Source: Acidobacteriota bacterium
GTDB lineage: Bacteria > Acidobacteriota > Blastocatellia > Pyrinomonadales > Pyrinomonadaceae
DNA: 16,307 nucleotides
Assembly (NCBI GenBank): GCA_003222835.1
Contig: QHXE01000238.1
Span: forward strand, 1-16,307
Reading direction: 5' to 3'
This document shows, in pieces, positions 1,677-11,719 of this stretch. Position numbers and translations under genes: made by a program. Positions within the stretch are counted from its first letter, which is position 1, and every line of letters starts with the position of its first letter. The notes under the pieces were generated by a model. The model was not told the DNA's origin. It made no database searches and saw nothing but the letters and a program-made list of their open reading frames with translations.

Positions 1677-4613
1677 TTAACCGCTCGCGAGTCGTCTCCA
1701 AATTCCGCTTTCGCCTTCGCTTTGAATGAGTGTGCTCACACTGTGATATGACGCCGCGTAAAGCGCGCGCATCTCCTGTTGCGAGCGCGGGTGTTCAAGT
1801 CGTTTCTCTAGTTCGTCAGTTGAAAGCGAGCCGTGCAGGTAATGTGAGAACAACCGGCCTTCACCGGCGAGATGAATCGCGAATCCTTCTTCCAACCAAC
1901 GCGGCGCGCGATTGTGACTGACCGCATCTATCACCGTGTGTGCTAGTTCGTGACGCAGCGTGGTGACGAGCACGCCACGGTGCTTTAGCAAAGCGAGTGG
2001 CTGCAGCTCAATGCGATCTCCTTTCGTCGCGGCGGCGGCCCACCACGGTTGCCCGGTGCGGGCGGTAAAGTCACCGGTGCTTTCGTTAAGTCTGATTTCG
2101 AGTATAGGGATGTCGGAAATCGAAACTGATGCTGCGTTCGCTCGATGGAGATAATCAGCGCGGGCGGATTCCAAAGTGTTCAGAACTTGCTCGGCATCGC
2201 GATGGTCGACACTGGCGGGATAAGTGACGCGAAAGTGATCGCTGGAGATCGTGAGATATCTTTGGTTCGTCTTCAGTCCCGTAGGGGCGAAATAGTTATA
2301 AGTCCAGCTGCCGAATAAATATTCAAGCTCCGTAGGAGCGAAATGTGATTGTTGCTTCCTTTGCGAGAGGGCTGGGGTGAGGGGCGTAGCTTGCGAGCAA
2401 TGAAGGAAATTAACCTCTATTTGTTTCTCCGATCCGCTCGGGGAAGAAATCAAACTAAGACCGTTGGGACCTGTCGCTAAGCCCTCACCCCGAGCCTCTC
2501 CCAAAGGGAGAGGGTGATTCGTTAACAAGAGATCAGCTTTCCAGCTCGCGCTATTCACCCTCGTGCCCGGAAAATATTTCTCAAGAATTCGCTGATAGCC
2601 TGCCCCGCGCTGCGCCATCACGTGCGCGCCCTCCTGACAAAGACCCAAACCATGGCCGAAGCCACGACCACGAAAGATGAAGTTCGATCCCGTGCGAGAA
2701 ACTTCAAATCGCGAACTCTTCAACAGGTTCCATCCCAGCACGCGTCCGACAATTATCTTGAAATCCCAGCCGCGCACGATCTTACGATGTTCGCCTTCGA
2801 GCGTGATAACTTCTGCGCGCCCGGTTTCATCGCGTTTGTTGACGATGATTTGATCGAATCTTGAACCCACATCGGTGCGAGCATCGCTTTGCAGCGCCCG
2901 CAATAAATCGGCGCGAGAGATCACATCGGTCCAGTTTGCATGCGGACCGGTGATGCAGAACTCGTCGTGCCCACCCCGTAGATACGCGGGCGCAGTCTTG
3001 CCCCAGAGCGTTCCGATGTTCGCCGTCTCGCCGCCGCACGAGGCGCCAAAGTATGAATCGATAGGTTGGCCGCGTTCGTCGACGAGCACCTGACCCTCGG
3101 TAGCCTTAACCGCGGCGAGGATCGTGTCAGAAGCCCGACCGTTAGGAAGGGCCCCGCTGCCGATCGAGCCCTCCCTCACGGTCGGACTACTGACACTGAA
3201 TCGCTGGCAGTGCGTGGTCGAACAAAAGTCGTATCCATCCTTCGCATGTCGTCCGCGGTTCTTAATAGCGTAGGTGCGAATCGCGATTGCTAAAGCTTTC
3301 AGCGCTTCGGGTTCCGTTTCCATGCTTCCTTCCGCGCGCATCACGCCGAGGACGTAATCTTCCAAAGATATTTCCCTCGTAATGTTCTCAGTTACCAGAT
3401 GAACTCTTACGATTGCGGATTGCGGGTTGCGGATTGCGGAATTTGAGGGCTCGGCTCTATCTCTGGGTTCCTCTGCGTCTTTGCGGCGAACGTCTTCCGT
3501 CTCCGCGGCGAACGTTTCAAATATAGGTTTCGACAACGTCGCAGCTTCAGCGCCATGCGAACGCGACAGAAGCACCAGCACCGCAAGGTCGATTTCATTT
3601 GAACTTGGTTCAGCAGATGAATCTGCTCGCGTGTGACTGGCGAAACCGACGAACCAACCGTTAGACCGAAAGCCTTTCGCAGGCTGCGAGGTTCCCGTCT
3701 TGCCCAGAATGTAAAGTGGAAGCGAATCGAGGTGCGCGTTCCTTGCCGTACCATAGCGCACGGCGCCGCGCATGCCGTCGATGACGATCGCGCGGTGTAG
3801 TTGAGAGATGTCAATTCGCGATCGTTCGACGGGTGCAGACTGGCTGATTCGAGGTTGCCATAGACGTCCGCCATTCACCAACGCGGTATAGGCCAACAAC
3901 AATTGAATCGGTGTGACTTGAATGTGATCGCTCTCGCCAATCGCTTCGCGCGCGTCGCAGTCGCTTTGCTCCGACGCGTGGGCGCTCTCTCGAATCATCG
4001 CGTTGTTTCCGGTTTCGCAGGGCCGCAGGGTTCCAGCGGTCTCTTCATCGCTTCCGGTTAGTTGGCCAAATCCAAACTGGCGCGCGGTTTCGATTAGCTG
4101 GTCTCGGCCTAGGCGCTGGCCCAGCGTGGCGAAATAGTAATTACACGAATAGGCGATTGCCTGCGACGGCGTGAACGGGGGCAAATGATCTTCATGGACG
4201 CAAGCCAAGGAGAAGCTGCGTCCCGCAAAGCGACCCGGACAGACGGTGCGGGAATCTTTATCAATCAATCCGGCCCGCAGTGCCGCCAAGGCGGTGAACG
4301 GTTTCATTGTCGAGCCGGGCATCAACGCTTGACCGAAGGCAAGCTGAGAATTTACCAACGCACGGATCCGGCCCGTTTGCGCATCCATCACGATGATTGC
4401 GCCTTCGCGTTGGCCGAGCGCAGAAGTGGCCGCCTGCTCTAACGCCGAATCAATTTCGGATTCGTCGACGCTTGAGCTTACGCTCGATAAGTTAAACGAA
4501 ATCCGGTTGCCAATTCTGGAAGGAAACGCGAGCAGCAAAATCGCAGAGCAGGCCCACGTCATGAGCAACGCATGCTCGCGCGTCAGACGATGGAGGCGAC
4601 TGGCGGGTATCAC
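1677..4613 (-). CDS. Penicillin-binding transpeptidase / SpoIID-LytB / peptidase-MA-like fusion protein
   Basis: This 978-residue protein joins three envelope domains. An N-terminal membrane helix (about 18-30) precedes a transpeptidase domain (about 55-365) with all three penicillin-binding motifs: STMK (Ser101), SCN (156-158) and KTG (305-307). A SpoIID/LytB domain follows (about 402-684), with the Glu of GVMRAEG (Glu428) at the position of the known SpoIID catalytic Glu, then CSTTHCQ, SCGGETAN and the GRGFGHGLGLCQEGA signature. The C-terminal part (about 781-978) has HELAH (888-892) and WLEEGFA, the HExxH...E pattern of peptidase-MA gluzincins. The GTG at 4613 was chosen because it overlaps the upstream stop by 4 nt and has GGAGG 7 nt before it; a start at 4712 would overlap the neighbour by 103 nt. 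Repeat-like DNA lies at both junctions. The combined role, probably peptidoglycan remodelling, is inferred. Confidence 0.9.
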   Translation of the reverse strand: MIPASRLHRLTREHALLMTWACSAILLLAFPSRIGNRISFNLSSVSSSVDESEIDSALEQAATSALGQREGAIIVMDAQTGRIRALVNSQLAFGQALMPGSTMKPFTALAALRAGLIDKDSRTVCPGRFAGRSFSLACVHEDHLPPFTPSQAIAYSCNYYFATLGQRLGRDQLIETARQFGFGQLTGSDEETAGTLRPCETGNNAMIRESAHASEQSDCDAREAIGESDHIQVTPIQLLLAYTALVNGGRLWQPRISQSAPVERSRIDISQLHRAIVIDGMRGAVRYGTARNAHLDSLPLYILGKTGTSQPAKGFRSNGWFVGFASHTRADSSAEPSSNEIDLAVLVLLSRSHGAEAATLSKPIFETFAAETEDVRRKDAEEPRDRAEPSNSAIRNPQSAIVRVHLVTENITREISLEDYVLGVMRAEGSMETEPEALKALAIAIRTYAIKNRGRHAKDGYDFCSTTHCQRFSVSSPTVREGSIGSGALPNGRASDTILAAVKATEGQVLVDERGQPIDSYFGASCGGETANIGTLWGKTAPAYLRGGHDEFCITGPHANWTDVISRADLLRALQSDARTDVGSRFDQIIVNKRDETGRAEVITLEGEHRKIVRGWDFKIIVGRVLGWNLLKSSRFEVSRTGSNFIFRGRGFGHGLGLCQEGAHVMAQRGAGYQRILEKYFPGTRVNSASWKADLLLTNHPLPLGEARGEGLATGPNGLSLISSPSGSEKQIEVNFLHCSQATPLTPALSQRKQQSHFAPTELEYLFGSWTYNYFAPTGLKTNQRYLTISSDHFRVTYPASVDHRDAEQVLNTLESARADYLHRANAASVSISDIPILEIRLNESTGDFTARTGQPWWAAAATKGDRIELQPLALLKHRGVLVTTLRHELAHTVIDAVSHNRAPRWLEEGFAIHLAGEGRLFSHYLHGSLSTDELEKRLEHPRSQQEMRALYAASYHSVSTLIQSEGESGIWRRLASG
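2274..2528. repeat. REP-like and FAPT-type repeats embedded in frame (SpoIID to peptidase junction)
   Basis: Two repeat types lie inside the coding region. A REP-like inverted pair has arms at about 2365-2385 and 2481-2502 (GAGAGGGCTGGGGTGAGGGG against GCCCTCACCCC plus GAGCCTCTCCC), with a small AAAGGGAGAGGG hairpin after it. A direct repeat, CGTAGGRGCGAAAT, occurs at 2280 and 2331, exactly 51 nt apart, and gives two FAPT peptides 17 residues apart. The stretch encodes residues about 696-780 of the fusion protein, between the SpoIID and protease domains, with no recognisable domain of its own. Both DNA motifs look like intergenic repeats that happen to be translated. Confidence 0.8.
3125..3195. 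repeat. Palindromic repeat inserted in frame inside the SpoIID domain
   Basis: The left arm starts TGTCAGAAGCCCGACCGTTA at 3125. The right arm is its near-complete reverse complement and ends CGGTCGGACTACTGACA at 3195. The spacer is about 15-20 nt. It encodes about 25 residues (473-497, with SPTVREGS) between CSTTHCQRF and AAVKATEGQVL. In ordinary SpoIID domains the CxTTHCQ motif and the AxxATxGxVL motif are only a few to about ten residues apart, so this looks like a tolerated in-frame insertion. Confidence 0.8.
3411..3515. repeat. Heptamer tandem plus CGCAGAG-type repeat in frame (transpeptidase to SpoIID junction)
   Basis: Four tandem copies of the 7-nt unit GATTGCG (third copy GGTTGCG) occupy 3411-3438 and translate, on the minus strand, to NSAIRNPQSAI. 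Further on, GCGGCGAACGT occurs twice (3483-3493 and 3505-3515), next to TCCTCTGCGTCTTTGCGG, a sequence of the same style as the intergenic repeat at 5503-5590. Together they encode the linker (about residues 371-401) between the transpeptidase and SpoIID domains. Confidence 0.75.
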
Positions 4614-5458
4614 GCGGGGGCCTCCGCGGTCGTGCGCGGTGCGGTCTGAGTTATAGGAGCAGTGGATGTTTCCGTATTCACCTTTGCCAGCGCAGTCACG
4701 GTTACGATCCAACCGATCAGGGAGAAACAGAAAGCAATCAAGAGCTGCGCGATGAAAAGCGCGAAATCGGTCTTCGTCCCTTTTGGGGAAATCTTAACGA
4801 AGAGAACTGCGTAAGGTATAAAAGCAAACAGGATCGCGCCAAGTGCGTACATCAAAACTGAATCGGAGGCGAAGGCACGCGCGAGCCATCTACCGATTCG
4901 CTTCACCGTCGCCTCCGCGCCGCCGCTGAACAATGTTCTAACGTTACCTGCGCTAACTCTGGCCCAGAGATGAATCGTGGCTAGCGGCAACGCTATGGCA
5001 AATACTAGAAATCGGATCGTCGCAAAAATCACCGTGGGCCAATGAAGCGGCTGTGGCTTCGGCGCACCGCGGAGCGATTCGGCCAGCGCCGCTTTTGGAG
5101 CGGGATAGTGAAGCTGAAATTTGTCGAGCAGGGCCCAAAATACCAACGCGATCAAAACGATGGGAATCGTCGCAACAAAGAGCTTAATAGCGCCGCGAAC
5201 GATCTGTGGCCAAAGAAACTTTCCCTCGCGCGCGTGCTCGAGGACCGCCGACTGAAGCACAAAGAACTCGGCCGGTATCAGCACGAGAAAAGCGTAAGTG
5301 ATTAGAACCTGCCAGACCGTCGCTTCGCGGGTGGCGATGAAGATGTAAAAAGTAACGAGTAGTAGCGCGTAAAGGCCGGCGAAGCTAGCGAGGGCCCGGG
5401 CTTGTCTCAGTACTGCCCGCGCGCTGTCAAGCCAAGTCTGCAAAGTTGCTTTGATCAT
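4610..5458 (-). CDS. Polytopic membrane protein of unknown function in the alpha-2-macroglobulin cluster
   Basis: I do not recognise the family of this 282-residue protein. Six hydrophobic stretches long enough to span the membrane lie at about 25-45, 52-72, 89-112, 145-167, 200-222 and 232-258. They are joined by short basic loops and one proline-rich loop around 115-140. The tail is hydrophilic and rich in Thr, Ala and Pro (about 260-282). The ATG at 5458 has AGAGG 5 nt upstream. Its stop codon overlaps the GTG start of the transpeptidase/SpoIID fusion by 4 nt, which implies translational coupling, so the two products are probably made in matched amounts. A role as a membrane partner of the fusion or of the macroglobulin upstream is inferred from position only. 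Confidence 0.85.
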   Translation of the reverse strand: MIKATLQTWLDSARAVLRQARALASFAGLYALLLVTFYIFIATREATVWQVLITYAFLVLIPAEFFVLQSAVLEHAREGKFLWPQIVRGAIKLFVATIPIVLIALVFWALLDKFQLHYPAPKAALAESLRGAPKPQPLHWPTVIFATIRFLVFAIALPLATIHLWARVSAGNVRTLFSGGAEATVKRIGRWLARAFASDSVLMYALGAILFAFIPYAVLFVKISPKGTKTDFALFIAQLLIAFCFSLIGWIVTVTALAKVNTETSTAPITQTAPRTTAEAPA

Positions 5459-5596: not shown

Positions 5597-8500
5597 TCAC
5601 TTCTTATCCAAAATTCTCAACCGATCATTACTGGTATTGGCCTGTATCGTCGGCTGATACATCAACTCAGCCCGCGCGGGCGCGATACGGAACTCGCCCG
5701 GGACCTCAACGCGCATAGCGTATTGGAACGTCGCGTCGCCATTGAAGTAATCGACGAAGATGGCCGTGCGGTTGTCTCGGAACTCGCGCGCGCTATACCA
5801 ATCGGTCCACTGTCCAGTTGTGTAATTCAAGTAGATGCCACTGACCTGCGCGACCTGTTCGGCGCCCGCGGGAATCGGATCTTCGATCATCAGGTACTGT
5901 GCCCGCGCGCCGGTGAGATGCAGGCGCACGACGATCAAATCCCCGGAGCGTAGCTCGCCCGTCAACGGTTCAATCTTCCAACTCGACTTTCCGTTTTCGT
6001 TTTCAGTCACGTGGAGGCGCAGATACTCGCGCGCGATCTTCAGATTTCCCGACGACTGGGCAGGTACGTTGTCTTCCGCCGTGAAGTATTGAACCGACGC
6101 CGAAAGATACAGCGCGCCGCGGCCATGCTTAACGACCCGAATCTGATTGTTGTTGCTGACTTCGCCCGCCTTCTTCGTGATCACAAAGTCCTGCGCGTTT
6201 GTAGCCTCGCCTGCGCCGACGTGTTGCTGAGCGACTTGGGCGCCATTCAAATAAATCTCGAATGAATAGTCGGGCGACAATTCATGGCTGACTTTCAAGT
6301 AATCAGTAAGACCATAGATCGCGAAGGCAGTTTCTTTTGTCGAAAGCCAGTAATAACCGTTCTGACGATTCTTCACCAACCAGCGCGCGACTTTTGGCAA
6401 CAGCGCGTTGCTCGGATCGACTTGCGAAAGAGCTTTCAATGATAGCGCTGTGGCTTCCGCGTCAAGATAGACGTTGCGGCCATAATCGTTGACGCGCGCG
6501 GTTTGCCAATGGGCCTCGAATTCGTCCGTCTGTGCTGAGGCGGCGATTGCGCCCGCAATCTCTTTCGCGCGTCCATCTTTGCGCTGGTGCAACGAGAGCG
6601 CGAGCAGAGCGCGGCCGTAAGGCCCGAGGCTCCCGCGCTTCGCATAAAGCGCTTCGAGATAATGACCATCGCTGTCACCACTTTCGGTGTAGGCATAGAT
6701 CATGTAGCTTCTGGTTTCATCATCGATCGGATTGCCGTTGTCGTTCTTGCCCGCGTTCAGCAGAGACGCAAGCTTCTCGCGACCCTGGTCGCGGCGCCCA
6801 AGATCGATCTGGTAGCCGGCTTTGCTCGCCAGCGTCAGCCCGTCAACAACATAGGCCGTCATGAACGGATCGCTCTTGTCGTCTTTCCACCAGCCCCAAC
6901 CGCCATCGTCATGCTGATAGGCGTATAGACGATCGAGCCCGCGTTGAACTTTTTTATCGAGATCGTTCGACGCGCGAATCTTCGCGGTAGGCACGTCCTT
7001 CAAGGTCTGCGCGACAATAACATTCGGCAAGAAGCTGGACATCGTTTGTTCCGTGCAGCCGTATGGAAAACTCGTCAAATAATCGAGCGCGCCAAACAGA
7101 GTTCCAGCTAAAGAAGGCGACGCTTCGATGCGGAGATTGCGCGCCTGGCTATCAGGATTTGCTGATAGATCGAGCGAGAAAGTTTGGTCCGCATCATTCT
7201 GCGTGAGTGTCGTCGTGTTGCCGACAGTCTGCTTCAATCCATGCGGCACGATCTCCATGGTCATCTCGACCGCATCAGACTCAGTATCAGTCAACGCCTT
7301 CGCCAACAGCGTGAGTTTGCCGACTTGATTGGCTTGCACGCGCCAATCAACGCGATGTTCGCCGTTTTGTTTGATCGTCACAGTTTCGCTCGGCGAATCG
7401 AGTAATTGAGCCCCGTTAAGATCGAGCGAGATCTTCGTCGACTTGTCACTCTTCAGGAAGTTATGCACGACGCCTGAGATAGTCACAGTGTCGCCTTCAG
7501 TCAGAAAGCGCGGCATTTCCAGACGCATGATCACATCCTTGCGCGCGATTGTTTTCTGCACGGCTGAACCTACGCGGGTGTCGGTGGTGACGGCGCGCGC
7601 GGTCGCACGCCAGGTAGTTAAGTTGTCCGGCAGCTTGAAATTTACCGTGGCTTTGCCATCGCCGCCGGTCACCGCATCCGGTTGCCAAAACGCAGTGTCC
7701 TTGAACTCGCGGCGAATAGTAGGTTCAGCGTAAGCACTTTCATTTTTGAAATCGGCGAGCTGATAAGCAGATTTGTTCTTTGCGAGGTCGACTGGCTTGT
7801 CGCCGGCAAAGCCTGCAAATTTGTAGTGTATCGCAAGACTCGTCTGTACTTCGTTGTAGCGCTTGCCATAGAACTCACGCTTGATATTACGCGCAGTTTC
7901 CGCCTGGATGCTGTAAATCGCTTCGTCGACAATTCCGAGACTCACCTCCGCATTCGCCGCGGGCGAGCCATCTTCGTTGCGCGCCACGATTGTGTATGAC
8001 GCCACGTCGCGTGGCTTGAATTCTTTCTTATTGGGCACGATGTCAAGCTTCAGCATTTTGTCGCGCGCGGGCACGGCGATGAGTTGGCTCTGGCTGTACA
8101 TGTCGCTGTCCTTGACGAACGACACATCGAGATAAACATTCGGTTCGTAGCGCTGCTCGATTGGCACATCGATCACGATGCTGCGGCCGGCCGCGTCAAT
8201 TTCTCGCGCAGTTATGACGTTCGACAGCTCAGTCGTTACCAGCAGGTGGGCTTTGTCGGCCGGCAGCATCGCGAGCACGTGCGCGGTCTCGCCAGCCTTG
8301 TAAGATTTTTTGTCGGGTACGAGCTTGATTGATTTCTCGTCATAGTCACGATACTCAAAATCGGACCATTCGCCTTTCTTATCGGGCGCCCAGAACGAGC
8401 CGCCGCGATTCACGATCTCTTTACCGTTTTCGCTAAGGATGGCTTTGACGTAAATGCTACCGGGCGAGGGAACAGTGAAATCGTACGCTGCATTGCCCTG

Positions 8501-10525
8501 GCTGTCTGTGTTTACATCGGCAGAACCCAACTCGCGTTCATGCAGGATGTAATCGTAGTTCTTGTACTTATAGCCGTTGTACTCCTCCTCTTTCTCGACC
8601 TTCTCGTATTTCTGTTCGATGAACTTGAGCGTGACTTTCTCGGAAACTGGATGGCCGGCATAGTCAGCAGTCTTTACTTTGATCTTCGCGGTGTCGCCTT
8701 GGTAATAGAGATAGCGTTCTGGGTATGCGTCGGCGACTGTTTTGCCGCGCGTGCCGATGAAAGAGGCTTGGCCGTGCATCTCGCGGCGCGAGGCGTCAGT
8801 GACCTGCGCTTCGAGTCGATATGAATAGTCCCATTCATCTTTCTCTTCAGGCGCCGGTACTTCGAAATCGACAGCCATCTCGCCGCGTGAATTGAGCGTG
8901 CCATCGCCTTCAGTCACCAGATCACTGCCGTAGGAACCGGAGTTTTCTTCGTCGCCACCTTCGTTCTCTGGTCCCGCCGCGTCGTCGAATTCGTCGTTTG
9001 ATTCGTCGCCCCACCACCAGTGGTAATAACGTTGCTTGTAGATGTAGTAATGCACGTCGGCGTTCGTCACCGGCGCGCCGAAGAAATAATTGGCGTTGAC
9101 CGTGAACTTCACTTTCTCGCCGACGGCGGCAAACTCTTTCGGACCCTTGACCGTCACTTTGAATTCTGGCTTCTTGTATTCCTGAACCTCGAAGTAACCA
9201 CTCGATTTCGCGTCGCCAACTGCGGCCGTGATGTTGTAGTTGCCGAGCGGTGCTTCGTCGGCGAGGTCTATCTCTCCGCTGAAACTGCCGCGCGTCGATA
9301 GCGGCAATTCCTTCTCGAAAATCTTGCCGTTATTCGGATCTTCGATCGTTACGTCGACGGTCTTGCTGTCGAGCAGTTGATAGCCATTGCGGCCCCATTG
9401 CCGCAGGATGCCTTTGAAATAGACTTTCTGTGCCGGGCGATAGATTGGGCGATCGGTATAGATATAGCTGGTGACGTCCTCGCTCGTAAGTGCATCGTCT
9501 TCGCCGCCCTCGCCGCTGAAATAGAATGATTCGACGTCGGAGATGACAAAGTTGTCGCGCTCGCGCGCCATGATCAGGTAAGCGCTTTTCTGCGATTCCT
9601 CCTGGTCGGTATTTTCTTCTGCACCCTCCTTGGCTGCCGGTTGTTTCACTTCGGTTTTGAAGACACCGCTTTTATCCGTCGTGCCGCTGGCCAGGACCTG
9701 TTTGCTTTTGGTGACTTCGATACTGACGCCTTCGTGCGGCGCGCCGGTCTTACGATCGACGACATAAACCAAAACCTGACCGTCCTTCGTCGTCTTTTCG
9801 ATCATTGTCAGATTGCTGACGATGGCGATCGAATAGGCACGCAGATCGCCATTCACGGCTTCGATCAGATAGACACCCGGTTCCTGTTTTCCGAGCGTGA
9901 CCATGCGGCCGTCGTATTCATTTTCGAGTGGCGGCAGAGGCTCGCGCCAATCTTTCACCTTCTGATCGGGATTGAGCAAAGGCACGCGCGCATAGTCGGC
10001 TATGTTCAGCGGCGTGCGGGTTGGTTCAGTCTCTCTGCGGAACTTTTGATTGAAAGTCTCGCGGTGTTGCTTCAATAAATGCATGCGGACGTAATCTCTG
10101 ACGGCGGTGAACAGAGAGATCTTCAATCGGTGGGTCCGCTCAAGCAGAGAAATCCGCGCGCCGTAGCCCTGCGAGATTTCTTCCTTCTCTTTCTCGCCCA
10201 TCTGATGCGGGTCGCCGAGCTGCTTGAAAAACTTGTTCGGGTCCTTGACGCGATATACACGGAAGTCGAGATGGTCGATGTTCTGATAGCTGGCCCAGAC
10301 GCGCGACGTTTCGCTTGTCGAATAAGTGCGATTCGTCGTCAGCGAGAAATAGGGCTTACTGTTGGCGACAGTCGGCGCGGGCGTCTCTGGCTGTGCGGGT
10401 GGCGCAGGTTGGTTCCGCACGGCGCGCGAACGAATCACGTTGAAGCCAAAAGCGGATGCGACGACGATTAAATATGTAGCTGCGGTCAGTAATAGGCTGC
10501 GCAGGCGTTGATTAGTTTCAGACAC
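5597..10525 (-). CDS. Bacterial alpha-2-macroglobulin family protein with intact thioester
   Basis: This is a large periplasmic protease-trap protein of about 1642 residues, the normal size for bacterial alpha-2-macroglobulins. A hydrophobic helix (about 10-30) works as signal or anchor and is followed by a Pro-rich linker. There is no lipobox Cys, unlike the lipoprotein YfhM. Visible landmarks are macroglobulin-like domains with YTDRPIYRP (about 357), an acidic insert rich in Asp, Glu and Gly (about 502-535), a bait-region-side domain with AEVSLGIVDEAIYSI, LPDNLTTWRATARA, then PYGCTEQ with thioester Cys1157 and Gln1160. The alpha-helical thioester domain follows (about 1150-1440, with GGWGWW), and a C-terminal beta domain with PIPAG. 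The GTG at 10525 was chosen because AGGGAGG lies 9 nt upstream. A TTG at 10579 would overlap the previous gene and add 18 unlikely residues. DUF1175 precedes it, as with yfaT/yfaS. Confidence 0.93.
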   Translation of the reverse strand: MSETNQRLRSLLLTAATYLIVVASAFGFNVIRSRAVRNQPAPPAQPETPAPTVANSKPYFSLTTNRTYSTSETSRVWASYQNIDHLDFRVYRVKDPNKFFKQLGDPHQMGEKEKEEISQGYGARISLLERTHRLKISLFTAVRDYVRMHLLKQHRETFNQKFRRETEPTRTPLNIADYARVPLLNPDQKVKDWREPLPPLENEYDGRMVTLGKQEPGVYLIEAVNGDLRAYSIAIVSNLTMIEKTTKDGQVLVYVVDRKTGAPHEGVSIEVTKSKQVLASGTTDKSGVFKTEVKQPAAKEGAEENTDQEESQKSAYLIMARERDNFVISDVESFYFSGEGGEDDALTSEDVTSYIYTDRPIYRPAQKVYFKGILRQWGRNGYQLLDSKTVDVTIEDPNNGKIFEKELPLSTRGSFSGEIDLADEAPLGNYNITAAVGDAKSSGYFEVQEYKKPEFKVTVKGPKEFAAVGEKVKFTVNANYFFGAPVTNADVHYYIYKQRYYHWWWGDESNDEFDDAAGPENEGGDEENSGSYGSDLVTEGDGTLNSRGEMAVDFEVPAPEEKDEWDYSYRLEAQVTDASRREMHGQASFIGTRGKTVADAYPERYLYYQGDTAKIKVKTADYAGHPVSEKVTLKFIEQKYEKVEKEEEYNGYKYKNYDYILHERELGSADVNTDSQGNAAYDFTVPSPGSIYVKAILSENGKEIVNRGGSFWAPDKKGEWSDFEYRDYDEKSIKLVPDKKSYKAGETAHVLAMLPADKAHLLVTTELSNVITAREIDAAGRSIVIDVPIEQRYEPNVYLDVSFVKDSDMYSQSQLIAVPARDKMLKLDIVPNKKEFKPRDVASYTIVARNEDGSPAANAEVSLGIVDEAIYSIQAETARNIKREFYGKRYNEVQTSLAIHYKFAGFAGDKPVDLAKNKSAYQLADFKNESAYAEPTIRREFKDTAFWQPDAVTGGDGKATVNFKLPDNLTTWRATARAVTTDTRVGSAVQKTIARKDVIMRLEMPRFLTEGDTVTISGVVHNFLKSDKSTKISLDLNGAQLLDSPSETVTIKQNGEHRVDWRVQANQVGKLTLLAKALTDTESDAVEMTMEIVPHGLKQTVGNTTTLTQNDADQTFSLDLSANPDSQARNLRIEASPSLAGTLFGALDYLTSFPYGCTEQTMSSFLPNVIVAQTLKDVPTAKIRASNDLDKKVQRGLDRLYAYQHDDGGWGWWKDDKSDPFMTAYVVDGLTLASKAGYQIDLGRRDQGREKLASLLNAGKNDNGNPIDDETRSYMIYAYTESGDSDGHYLEALYAKRGSLGPYGRALLALSLHQRKDGRAKEIAGAIAASAQTDEFEAHWQTARVNDYGRNVYLDAEATALSLKALSQVDPSNALLPKVARWLVKNRQNGYYWLSTKETAFAIYGLTDYLKVSHELSPDYSFEIYLNGAQVAQQHVGAGEATNAQDFVITKKAGEVSNNNQIRVVKHGRGALYLSASVQYFTAEDNVPAQSSGNLKIAREYLRLHVTENENGKSSWKIEPLTGELRSGDLIVVRLHLTGARAQYLMIEDPIPAGAEQVAQVSGIYLNYTTGQWTDWYSAREFRDNRTAIFVDYFNGDATFQYAMRVEVPGEFRIAPARAELMYQPTIQANTSNDRLRILDKK

Positions 10526-10571
10526 GATCGATTGCCTCCCTGGAGACTTCCCTTGACAACTAAAAATGAAA

Positions 10572-11501
10572 TCATTCAAGAATCTTCAGTCGATAAAACC
10601 CAAGAAAATTTCTATTGCTTTCCAGCGGCCGCCAACGCGGATCGGGATGATGTTCGAGCACCGAAAGCTCGACCTTCTTAACCGTCCCCTTGTCTGTCGG
10701 CGACGAACCGGTGTGATAGACCACCCAATCTCGCTGTCCATTTGGCGCCACGCGCGGCGAGCCCAGAAAAATCATCACGTGATAAGGAAACTTCTGGACC
10801 CAGGGTTGATAGAAGAAGAGCAGATCACCGGCTTCGGCTTGCCGCCGATCTCGACTCACAAAAGTCGCATTGAAATTTTTGAGCGCGCGGCCATCGGCGA
10901 ATTCGGAGAATCTTCCGTCGCGTAGATCGCTTTCATGAAACGATCCGAAATCAGTGCGAAAGATTTTTTCTCCGAGCGGATTGTGATCGAGATCGAAACC
11001 AGCAACATCCGACGCCACAGGGTCGTAGCCCGGGCCCATCTTCTGAAACCAGAGGCGATCGTGACGCCGCAGCGCTTCACGAATTGCAAAGCGCGCCAGT
11101 CCGGCACAATCGTGCTGTTCGATCTTCCATTGATCGCTCAACTGATAGAACTGCATTTCAGCGATTGCCGTGAACCACCAACGAAAGTTGTCGCGATCTT
11201 GAAATGTGTGCAGTTCGACAGCGTCGGGGATGCCGTCGTTATCTGAGTCGATCAGTTTGCGGTCAGAGAGGAACGATTGGTTGGTTTCTGAGGTGGATGA
11301 ACTTGATGGACTTGTGTTCTGCTTAGTGCCTCCCGCCTCCTGCTTCCTGCTTCCTGCTGCGGCGGGTACCCCTTCGAAGCCCCGCGCACGCGGCAGCAAT
11401 CGATTCACGCCCCATCCCACGGCCGCGAGCGAAACGATGAGGATGCTCGCCATCGTCGTCGAGCGCCTCGAAGGGGCACGCATTTGAAAGGGGATTAGCA
11501 T
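10572..11501 (-). CDS. DUF1175 (YfaT-type) membrane-anchored protein with NlpC/P60-like signature
   Basis: This 309-residue protein resembles the DUF1175 family, typified by E. coli YfaT, whose gene accompanies the macroglobulin gene yfaS. It has an N-terminal hydrophobic segment (about 17-32) and a low-complexity linker encoded in part by a heptamer tandem. A DSDNDGIPDAVEL stretch near residue 85 looks like a calcium-binding EF-hand or thrombospondin-3 type loop. The main domain has HDCAGLARF (Cys132), then EAGDLLFF, then YHVMIFLG (His241) and VVYHTG (His263). This order and spacing mirror the NlpC/P60 pattern DCSGL...GDLVFF...HVGIYLG. A cysteine amidase-like fold is therefore inferred, not proven. 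The ATG at 11501 has AGTAGG 5 nt before it; a GTG two codons upstream is an alternative. The macroglobulin start lies 46 nt downstream, so the two form an operon. Confidence 0.85.
   Translation of the reverse strand: MLIPFQMRAPSRRSTTMASILIVSLAAVGWGVNRLLPRARGFEGVPAAAGSRKQEAGGTKQNTSPSSSSTSETNQSFLSDRKLIDSDNDGIPDAVELHTFQDRDNFRWWFTAIAEMQFYQLSDQWKIEQHDCAGLARFAIREALRRHDRLWFQKMGPGYDPVASDVAGFDLDHNPLGEKIFRTDFGSFHESDLRDGRFSEFADGRALKNFNATFVSRDRRQAEAGDLLFFYQPWVQKFPYHVMIFLGSPRVAPNGQRDWVVYHTGSSPTDKGTVKKVELSVLEHHPDPRWRPLESNRNFLGFYRLKILE
11335..11362. repeat. Heptanucleotide tandem repeat in the DUF1175 gene
   Basis: The 7-nt unit GCTTCCT occurs as GCCTCCT, GCTTCCT, GCTTCCT and a decayed fourth copy. On the coding strand it yields the linker peptide SRKQEAGG right after the membrane helix. 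Gain or loss of one unit would shift the reading frame. Confidence 0.7.
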
Positions 11502-11719
11502 TGCCACCTACTATGACGCCGTAATTAGTTCATTTTGCACGCGGATGCTATCACGTATCGGTCAGGCCAACCACTTTTATGTTGCGGCACGCTACGCCGC
11601 GCCTAAGTGTGGATTCCCTCAGTTATGGTCGCGACAAAATTCGCGAACGCTTGGTTGTGCGCAAAATTTTGATTTTCGATGGCAAGACCAAGTCTTTTCA
11701 CTTTGCCCGCAGAAAGTTA

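Follow-up and report, generated by a model that had tools for sequence, protein, structure and literature searches.

The contig QHXE01000238.1 from an Acidobacteriota bacterium (assembly GCA_003222835.1; 16,307 nucleotides, referred to here as the window) raises the question of whether one gene can encode a penicillin-binding transpeptidase, a SpoIID/LytB domain and a peptidase-MA-like protease as a single polypeptide, as an initial annotation of the sequence had claimed, and of what such a protein might do. The gene lies on the minus strand, where the frame runs without interruption from a TTG at position 4712 down to its stop at 1677, a length of 1011 aa; the plus-strand frame across 1677-4613 contains many stops. 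The GTG at 4613 was taken as the likely start because this start and the stop codon of the upstream gene overlap in the sequence GTGA and because the near-identical database protein P0001 (98% identity, 97% of the query, 19 member sequences) has the same length of 978 aa. Residue numbers given below are counted from position 4712.

Domain searches and the comparison with relatives confirmed that one open frame carries a transpeptidase, a complete SpoIID domain and a C-terminal HExxH...E site. The first domain belongs to PF00905 both by its Pfam match and by its SxxK, SxN and KTG motifs. The second one was detected as SpoIID by Pfam (PF08486, residues 443-544, E 1.6e-19), gave 163.1 bits with SpoIID_LytB TIGR02669 against a cut-off of 83.3, which represents a whole-domain match with the catalytic glutamate, and matched the solved SpoIID structure 5i1t of the PDB (E 7.5e-23). 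PF00905 and PF08486 occurred together in one frame in all 120 listed relatives, four of which also showed PF13485. The predicted structure of the fusion was usable for the transpeptidase and weak as a whole (predicted local distance difference test, pLDDT, 60.7; predicted template modelling score, pTM, 0.39), and only the structure matches of the transpeptidase part were used; for the SpoIID and MA parts of the model none was listed, though one domain can fill such lists.

We also aligned 128 sequences, namely the window protein, 16 hand-picked members of the 120 listed relatives and 111 of the 120 matches of a second search that exceeded 700 aa, the nine matches of 700 aa or less being left out. 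The full catalytic set (S134xxK137, S189CN191, K338TG340, E461, H921ExxH925 and E942) was present in 127 of the 128 sequences, as the initial annotation had noted for the motifs of the window protein. Locus L006 has HELAL in place of HExxH. Since the catalytic set is kept to this extent, the triple fusion is no artefact.

With regard to the third domain, the HExxH with a downstream glutamate by which peptidase MA is recognised was found in 127 of 128 sequences. The C-terminal piece alone matched Peptidase_MA_2 (PF13485) with an E value of 5.5e-5 and 23.5 bits, still below the Pfam cut-off, and 11 of 18 C-terminal pieces matched this model at E <= 0.1. The motif behind the proposed MA-type peptidase stands, a PF13485 match over the cut-off was not obtained, and it is from the HExxH...E motif together with the sub-threshold Pfam match that the domain is assigned as a putative protease.

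A frame or assembly error, or a read-through made by repeats at the domain borders, would be another way to obtain such a frame, and we regard it as highly improbable. In its favor, dispersed repeats do lie in the inter-domain linkers, and in one relative (L008, 2786-5591) the fusion is split into a transpeptidase-SpoIID frame and an MA frame, by real fission or by a frame error. One arm of a palindrome inside the SpoIID domain was present in 142, 152, 85, 2, 210, 75 and 32 copies in seven related genomes (both strands, one mismatch allowed) and its reversed control in none, while an arm from the linker preceding the MA domain had 9-33 copies per related genome against 0 or 1 for the control. 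Short repeats resembling the linker between transpeptidase and SpoIID were seen in L005, L006, L016/L053 (one genome) and L059. All these repeats are in frame, mostly where the model has low confidence (residues 411-433, 487-527 and 722-816), which explains the junctions that the initial annotation had doubted (2270-2530 and 3400-3520) without creating the fusion: both junctions are in frame, and every listed relative has the transpeptidase and SpoIID joined. Moreover, the divergent relatives L041, L042, L048 and L057 keep the fusion, yet the three linker repeats of the window give no match in them. Linker content varies even among close relatives, as between the window and protein P0002. Palindromes within coding sequences and in frame recall the Rickettsia palindromic elements.

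The fusion is the last of four genes that follow one another on the minus strand in the order DUF1175, alpha-2-macroglobulin (A2M), a 282-aa membrane protein and the fusion, and the same four genes were found in this order and on a single strand in 7 of 7 loci (L001-L007). The coordinates of these features are listed in Table 1. Neither Pfam nor NCBIfam gave a match for the 282-aa protein. Its profile matched next to the fusions encoded as one frame in L001-L008, L050-L054, L106, L120 and L121, and was unmatched in L041, L042, L048, L057 and the split or permuted loci. The DUF1175 protein showed an NLPC_P60 match below the cut-off (E 0.0016), and it keeps the cysteine (DCAG) and the histidine (FPYH), as an NlpC/P60 enzyme might; the accessible part of PMC10318531 describes DUF1175 as an inactive peptidoglycan binder.

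Table 1. Features of the fusion gene and its neighbors in the window, and permuted relatives at other loci.
Feature	Position	Strand	Evidence or remark
Fusion gene, transpeptidase - SpoIID/LytB - HExxH peptidase-MA-like	1677..4613	minus	978 aa from likely GTG
Penicillin-binding transpeptidase domain, residues 104-361	3630..4403	minus	PF00905 E 7.9e-41
SxxK, S134-T-M-K137	4302..4313	minus	S and K in 128/128
SxN, S189-C-N191	4140..4148	minus	S and N in 128/128
KTG, K338-T-G340	3693..3701	minus	128/128
Repeat-like linker (NSAIRNPQSAI) between transpeptidase and SpoIID	3408..3464	minus	repeat search
SpoIID/LytB domain, lytic-transglycosylase type, residues 446-720	2553..3377	minus	TIGR02669 E 1.2e-47
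SpoIID glutamate E461	3330-3332	minus	128/128
Palindromic repeat, in frame, inside SpoIID domain	3123..3194	minus	repeat counts in related genomes
Low-confidence linker with dispersed repeats, SpoIID to MA domain	2274..2522	minus	pLDDT under 50 at residues 722-816
HExxH...E domain, peptidase-MA-like (putative), residues 820-1009	1686..2255	minus	sub-threshold PF13485, alignment
HELAH, residues 921-925	1938..1952	minus	H921, E922 in 127/128 each, H925 in 128/128
Putative third ligand E942	1887-1889	minus	127/128
282-aa membrane protein (nature read from sequence), between A2M and fusion	4610..5458	minus	no Pfam match
A2M	5597..10579	minus	Pfam MG2, A2M, bait region, TED, bMG10
A2M thioester motif CTEQ, residue 1175	7046-7057	minus	motif scan
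DUF1175 protein, YfaT-like, weakly NlpC/P60-like	10572..11507	minus	PF06672 E 4.8e-64
MA-SpoIID proteins (permuted order) next to A2M and DUF1175	L104:14772-16916, L095-L099, L103, L108-L118		

A survey of 297 Acidobacteriota genomes established that the fusion is a recurring family of this phylum, usually linked to A2M and DUF1175. DUF1175 was present in 39 of these genomes, and the surroundings of all 39 were inspected. The three domains were encoded near DUF1175 in 36 of them: as a single transpeptidase-SpoIID-MA frame in 14 (G001, G004, G028, G104, G122, G138, G192, G230, G254, G262, G264, G270, G286 and G296), as two genes in four (G134, G174, G236 and G276), the transpeptidase frame running at its end into the start of a SpoIID-MA frame, and with the MA domain before SpoIID in 18. 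At these 18 permuted loci, the transpeptidase (PMGSLAK, SCN, KTG) was the upstream frame in 17 and was fused as transpeptidase-MA-SpoIID in L104; HExxH was present in 18/18, and the MA profile was below threshold in L108 and L113. Because each frame in the architecture survey was taken to begin at its earliest potential start codon, some transpeptidase and MA-SpoIID frames overlap on paper. A Pfam scan of the permuted proteins of L103 and L104 recognised no transpeptidase, SpoIID or MA domain, and standard annotation may therefore miss such proteins. The A2M frames of Acidobacteriota contained CxEQ in 17/17 and 29/29 cases (two sets, with two genomes common to both). SpoIID was found with neither transpeptidase nor MA in frame in L049 and L059, and loci L010-L039 were fetched and left out of later tallies.

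The operon has a counterpart in Escherichia coli K-12, whose gene order is yfaT (DUF1175), yfaS (A2M, annotated as a pseudogene) and yfaQ (DUF2300, PF10062), within the yfaA-T-S-Q-P operon. As judged by profile comparison, the fusion is a homologue of YfaQ over its first two domains, and it occupies the same operon position; small alignments matched the SpoIID core only, and larger domain-cut alignments were needed. Like the fusion, YfaQ follows the DUF1175 and A2M genes and combines an N-terminus of transpeptidase/beta-lactamase fold with a SpoIID core and a C-terminal HExxH (HEYLH). In contrast to it, YfaQ has 549 instead of 978 aa, its SpoIID domain is recognisable in the first part only, and SxN and KTG are replaced by SCG and KTW; YfaQ retains SxxK, as SxWK, and each of the 34 relatives aligned with it shows SCG and KTW. 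Likewise, the open frame of yfaS lacks the CxEQ of the acidobacterial A2Ms. According to its predicted structure, the N-terminus of YfaQ would be class A or D beta-lactamase-like, a result that does not tell transpeptidase, lactamase and sensor apart; no structure matches were listed for the C-terminal part of the model, though one domain can fill such lists. PF10062 was unmatched in the window protein and over the cut-off in 0 of 297 Acidobacteriota genomes, the one sub-threshold DUF2300 match (G098) lying in a stretch where no operon profile matched. A plasmid search for YfaQ returned seven records (six Escherichia and one Citrobacter). The accessible part of PMC12282094, printed in 2025, describes YfaQ as bipartite, transpeptidase-like plus SpoIID-like, and reports that cells widen upon yfaQ deletion, with connections to envelope mutants including mepK, mepS and nlpI; its main text contains none of the words metalloprotease, peptidase, macroglobulin or yfaS.

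The fusion shares with SpoIID/LytB lytic transglycosylases a complete SpoIID domain with its glutamate, whereas the SpoIID relatives of solved structure stand alone, at about 330-350 residues, with neither transpeptidase nor peptidase. Type I A2M systems (YfhM/PbpC) are alike in that a CxEQ A2M adjoins a penicillin-binding transpeptidase; their transpeptidase, PBP1C, has a glycosyltransferase domain, where the fusion instead has SpoIID and MA-like domains. The window has the CxEQ motif of type I, and none of the nine window proteins scanned with Pfam was a PBP1C with a glycosyltransferase domain. As for type II (mag/yfa), the window has the DUF1175 neighbor; its A2M has CxEQ, which type II A2Ms lack, and no DUF2135 or DUF2138 was found among the same nine proteins. 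The mag operon of Pseudomonas aeruginosa (type II A2M MagD with MagA, B, C, E and F) also encodes a periplasmic A2M together with partners, and its MagD has no thioester motif, unlike the window A2M with CTEQ (accessible part of PMC5764988). From gene order and size, MagE is probably the YfaQ relative of this operon; a published primer reads LYSLQER, which agrees in 6 of 7 residues with a motif in 6 of 120 YfaQ relatives, a weak match that 2 of 200 shuffled peptides equalled. The parts of the published work accessible to us report that magE deletion alters the amount and forms of MagD (PMC5764988), propose for type I A2M a PBP1c wall repair coupled to protease trapping (PMC5764988), and report that MagD protects against the wall-cutting type VI secretion effectors VgrG3 and, weakly, Tae1 (PMC12663445).

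Taking these results together, we favor with moderate confidence that the fusion is a wall-remodelling enzyme of a bacterial A2M operon, a YfaQ relative with intact motifs, which would act in the periplasm with the protease trap during envelope attack. It would be anchored at the inner membrane and face the periplasm. If the envelope were breached by foreign enzymes, A2M would trap proteases, the SpoIID domain would trim damaged glycan strands and the transpeptidase would re-cross-link the wall, while the HExxH domain would cleave a protein of the same system, most likely A2M itself or an A2M-trapped protease, and this cleavage would couple the trap to wall repair. In the proteobacterial line, the transpeptidase motifs would have changed and the partner A2M would have lost its thioester motif, a decay from an intact ancestor. 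The initial annotation had pointed to opposing wall activities in one polypeptide; the three domains are there, and the combination is less odd in that cutting and cross-linking enzymes are normally both required when the wall is made or mended. A more far-reaching version is possible, though we consider it doubtful: transpeptidase, SpoIID cutter and HExxH protease would be one functional unit, fused, split or re-fused in another order, that serves A2M, with the HExxH domain either processing A2M (as MagD from 165 to 100 kDa in P. aeruginosa, via MagE) or disposing of the trapped protease, so that trapping would trigger local wall repair; the acidobacterial operon would then be the intact form that joins type I systems, with their thioester and transpeptidase, to type II systems, with DUF1175 and YfaQ. 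This version is made less probable by PMC5764988, which reports no stable MagD-MagE complex.

The fusion might instead be a general housekeeping wall enzyme whose A2M neighborhood is incidental or reflects a shared envelope-stress regulon only. Wall domains are indeed common singly, some part of the three-domain profile, often transpeptidase or SpoIID alone, being matched in 291 of 297 Acidobacteriota genomes, and SpoIID-MA frames with neither transpeptidase nor nearby A2M exist (L040, L043, L044, L046, L056 and L058, some on short contigs), with HExxH in three of these six (L040, L044 and L046). We nevertheless consider this unlikely, given that the trio stays within the fetched stretch in 36 of 39 DUF1175 genomes and in three gene architectures, whereas chance alone would place a SpoIID gene inside 10 kb in roughly 1% of genomes (assuming two such genes in 4 Mb, relatedness ignored), and that the partnership recurs in E. 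coli. It seems to us quite unlikely that the fusion is a scaffold holding A2M at the wall, as YfaQ might do, with some of its domains serving for binding or being pseudoenzymes: the changed SCG and KTW of YfaQ, the reported inactivity of DUF1175 and the HELAL of L006 point that way, whereas a pure scaffold would not need the motif residues kept in 127 of 128 acidobacterial-type sequences.

Several observations, besides the lone SpoIID-MA frames, speak against a wall-remodelling enzyme serving A2M. The trio was unlinked in 3 of 39 genomes: the fusion lies about 26 kb away in G056, transpeptidase and SpoIID-MA are on another contig than DUF1175 in G166, and in G210 A2M is at a contig end with the trio not nearby; G296 has a partial DUF1175 and yielded no A2M. 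Catalytic roles of all three domains are predicted. In the whole fusion PF13485 (residues 918-1004) reached E 7.5e-4 and 19.8 bits against a cut-off of 32.4, and a search of solved structures with the MA alignment returned no relative, only the unrelated NalD (E 0.089). The HEYLH piece of YfaQ matched the MA profile weakly (P 0.0078), so that this link also rests on position, and gave P 0.00037 against the last part of the SpoIID profile of the fusion. The accessible part of PMC12282094 reports YfaQ-msfGFP without signal. MagE is mapped onto YfaQ by inference, and in the accessible part of PMC5764988 no stable complex of MagD with MagE or MagC is reported, earlier work is cited as suggesting that MagE resides in the cytoplasm and is no stable member of the Mag complex, signal-peptide processing is proposed as its role, and the text contradicts a figure legend as to the loss of the 100-kDa form upon magC deletion. 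Finally, MagD gives no protection against TseH and is dispensable against B. thailandensis (accessible part of PMC12663445).

YfaQ as a transpeptidase/SpoIID-like protein, the mag and yfa operons and each single domain are already known. What appears to be new is that the protein has a third domain and a complete catalytic set, that it is linked to a CxEQ A2M, that split and permuted versions exist and that the family is tied to YfaQ; the open-access literature, only partly consulted, yielded no mention of a third domain of YfaQ or of its link to A2M. The initial annotation knew of no characterised protein with this architecture, and none characterised biochemically was found in the open-access literature searched; the fusion is not isolated, its homologue YfaQ having a deletion phenotype in print. 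The jobs of A2M partners are described as unclear in the accessible part of the literature, and the family gives one of them three testable enzymatic activities, which are predicted. It brings the cutting and cross-linking of the wall into the neighborhood of a protease trap, supplies a candidate for the protease that processes macroglobulin and would bridge the thioester and thioester-less macroglobulin systems, while the little-studied YfaQ gains intact relatives and an overlooked third domain.

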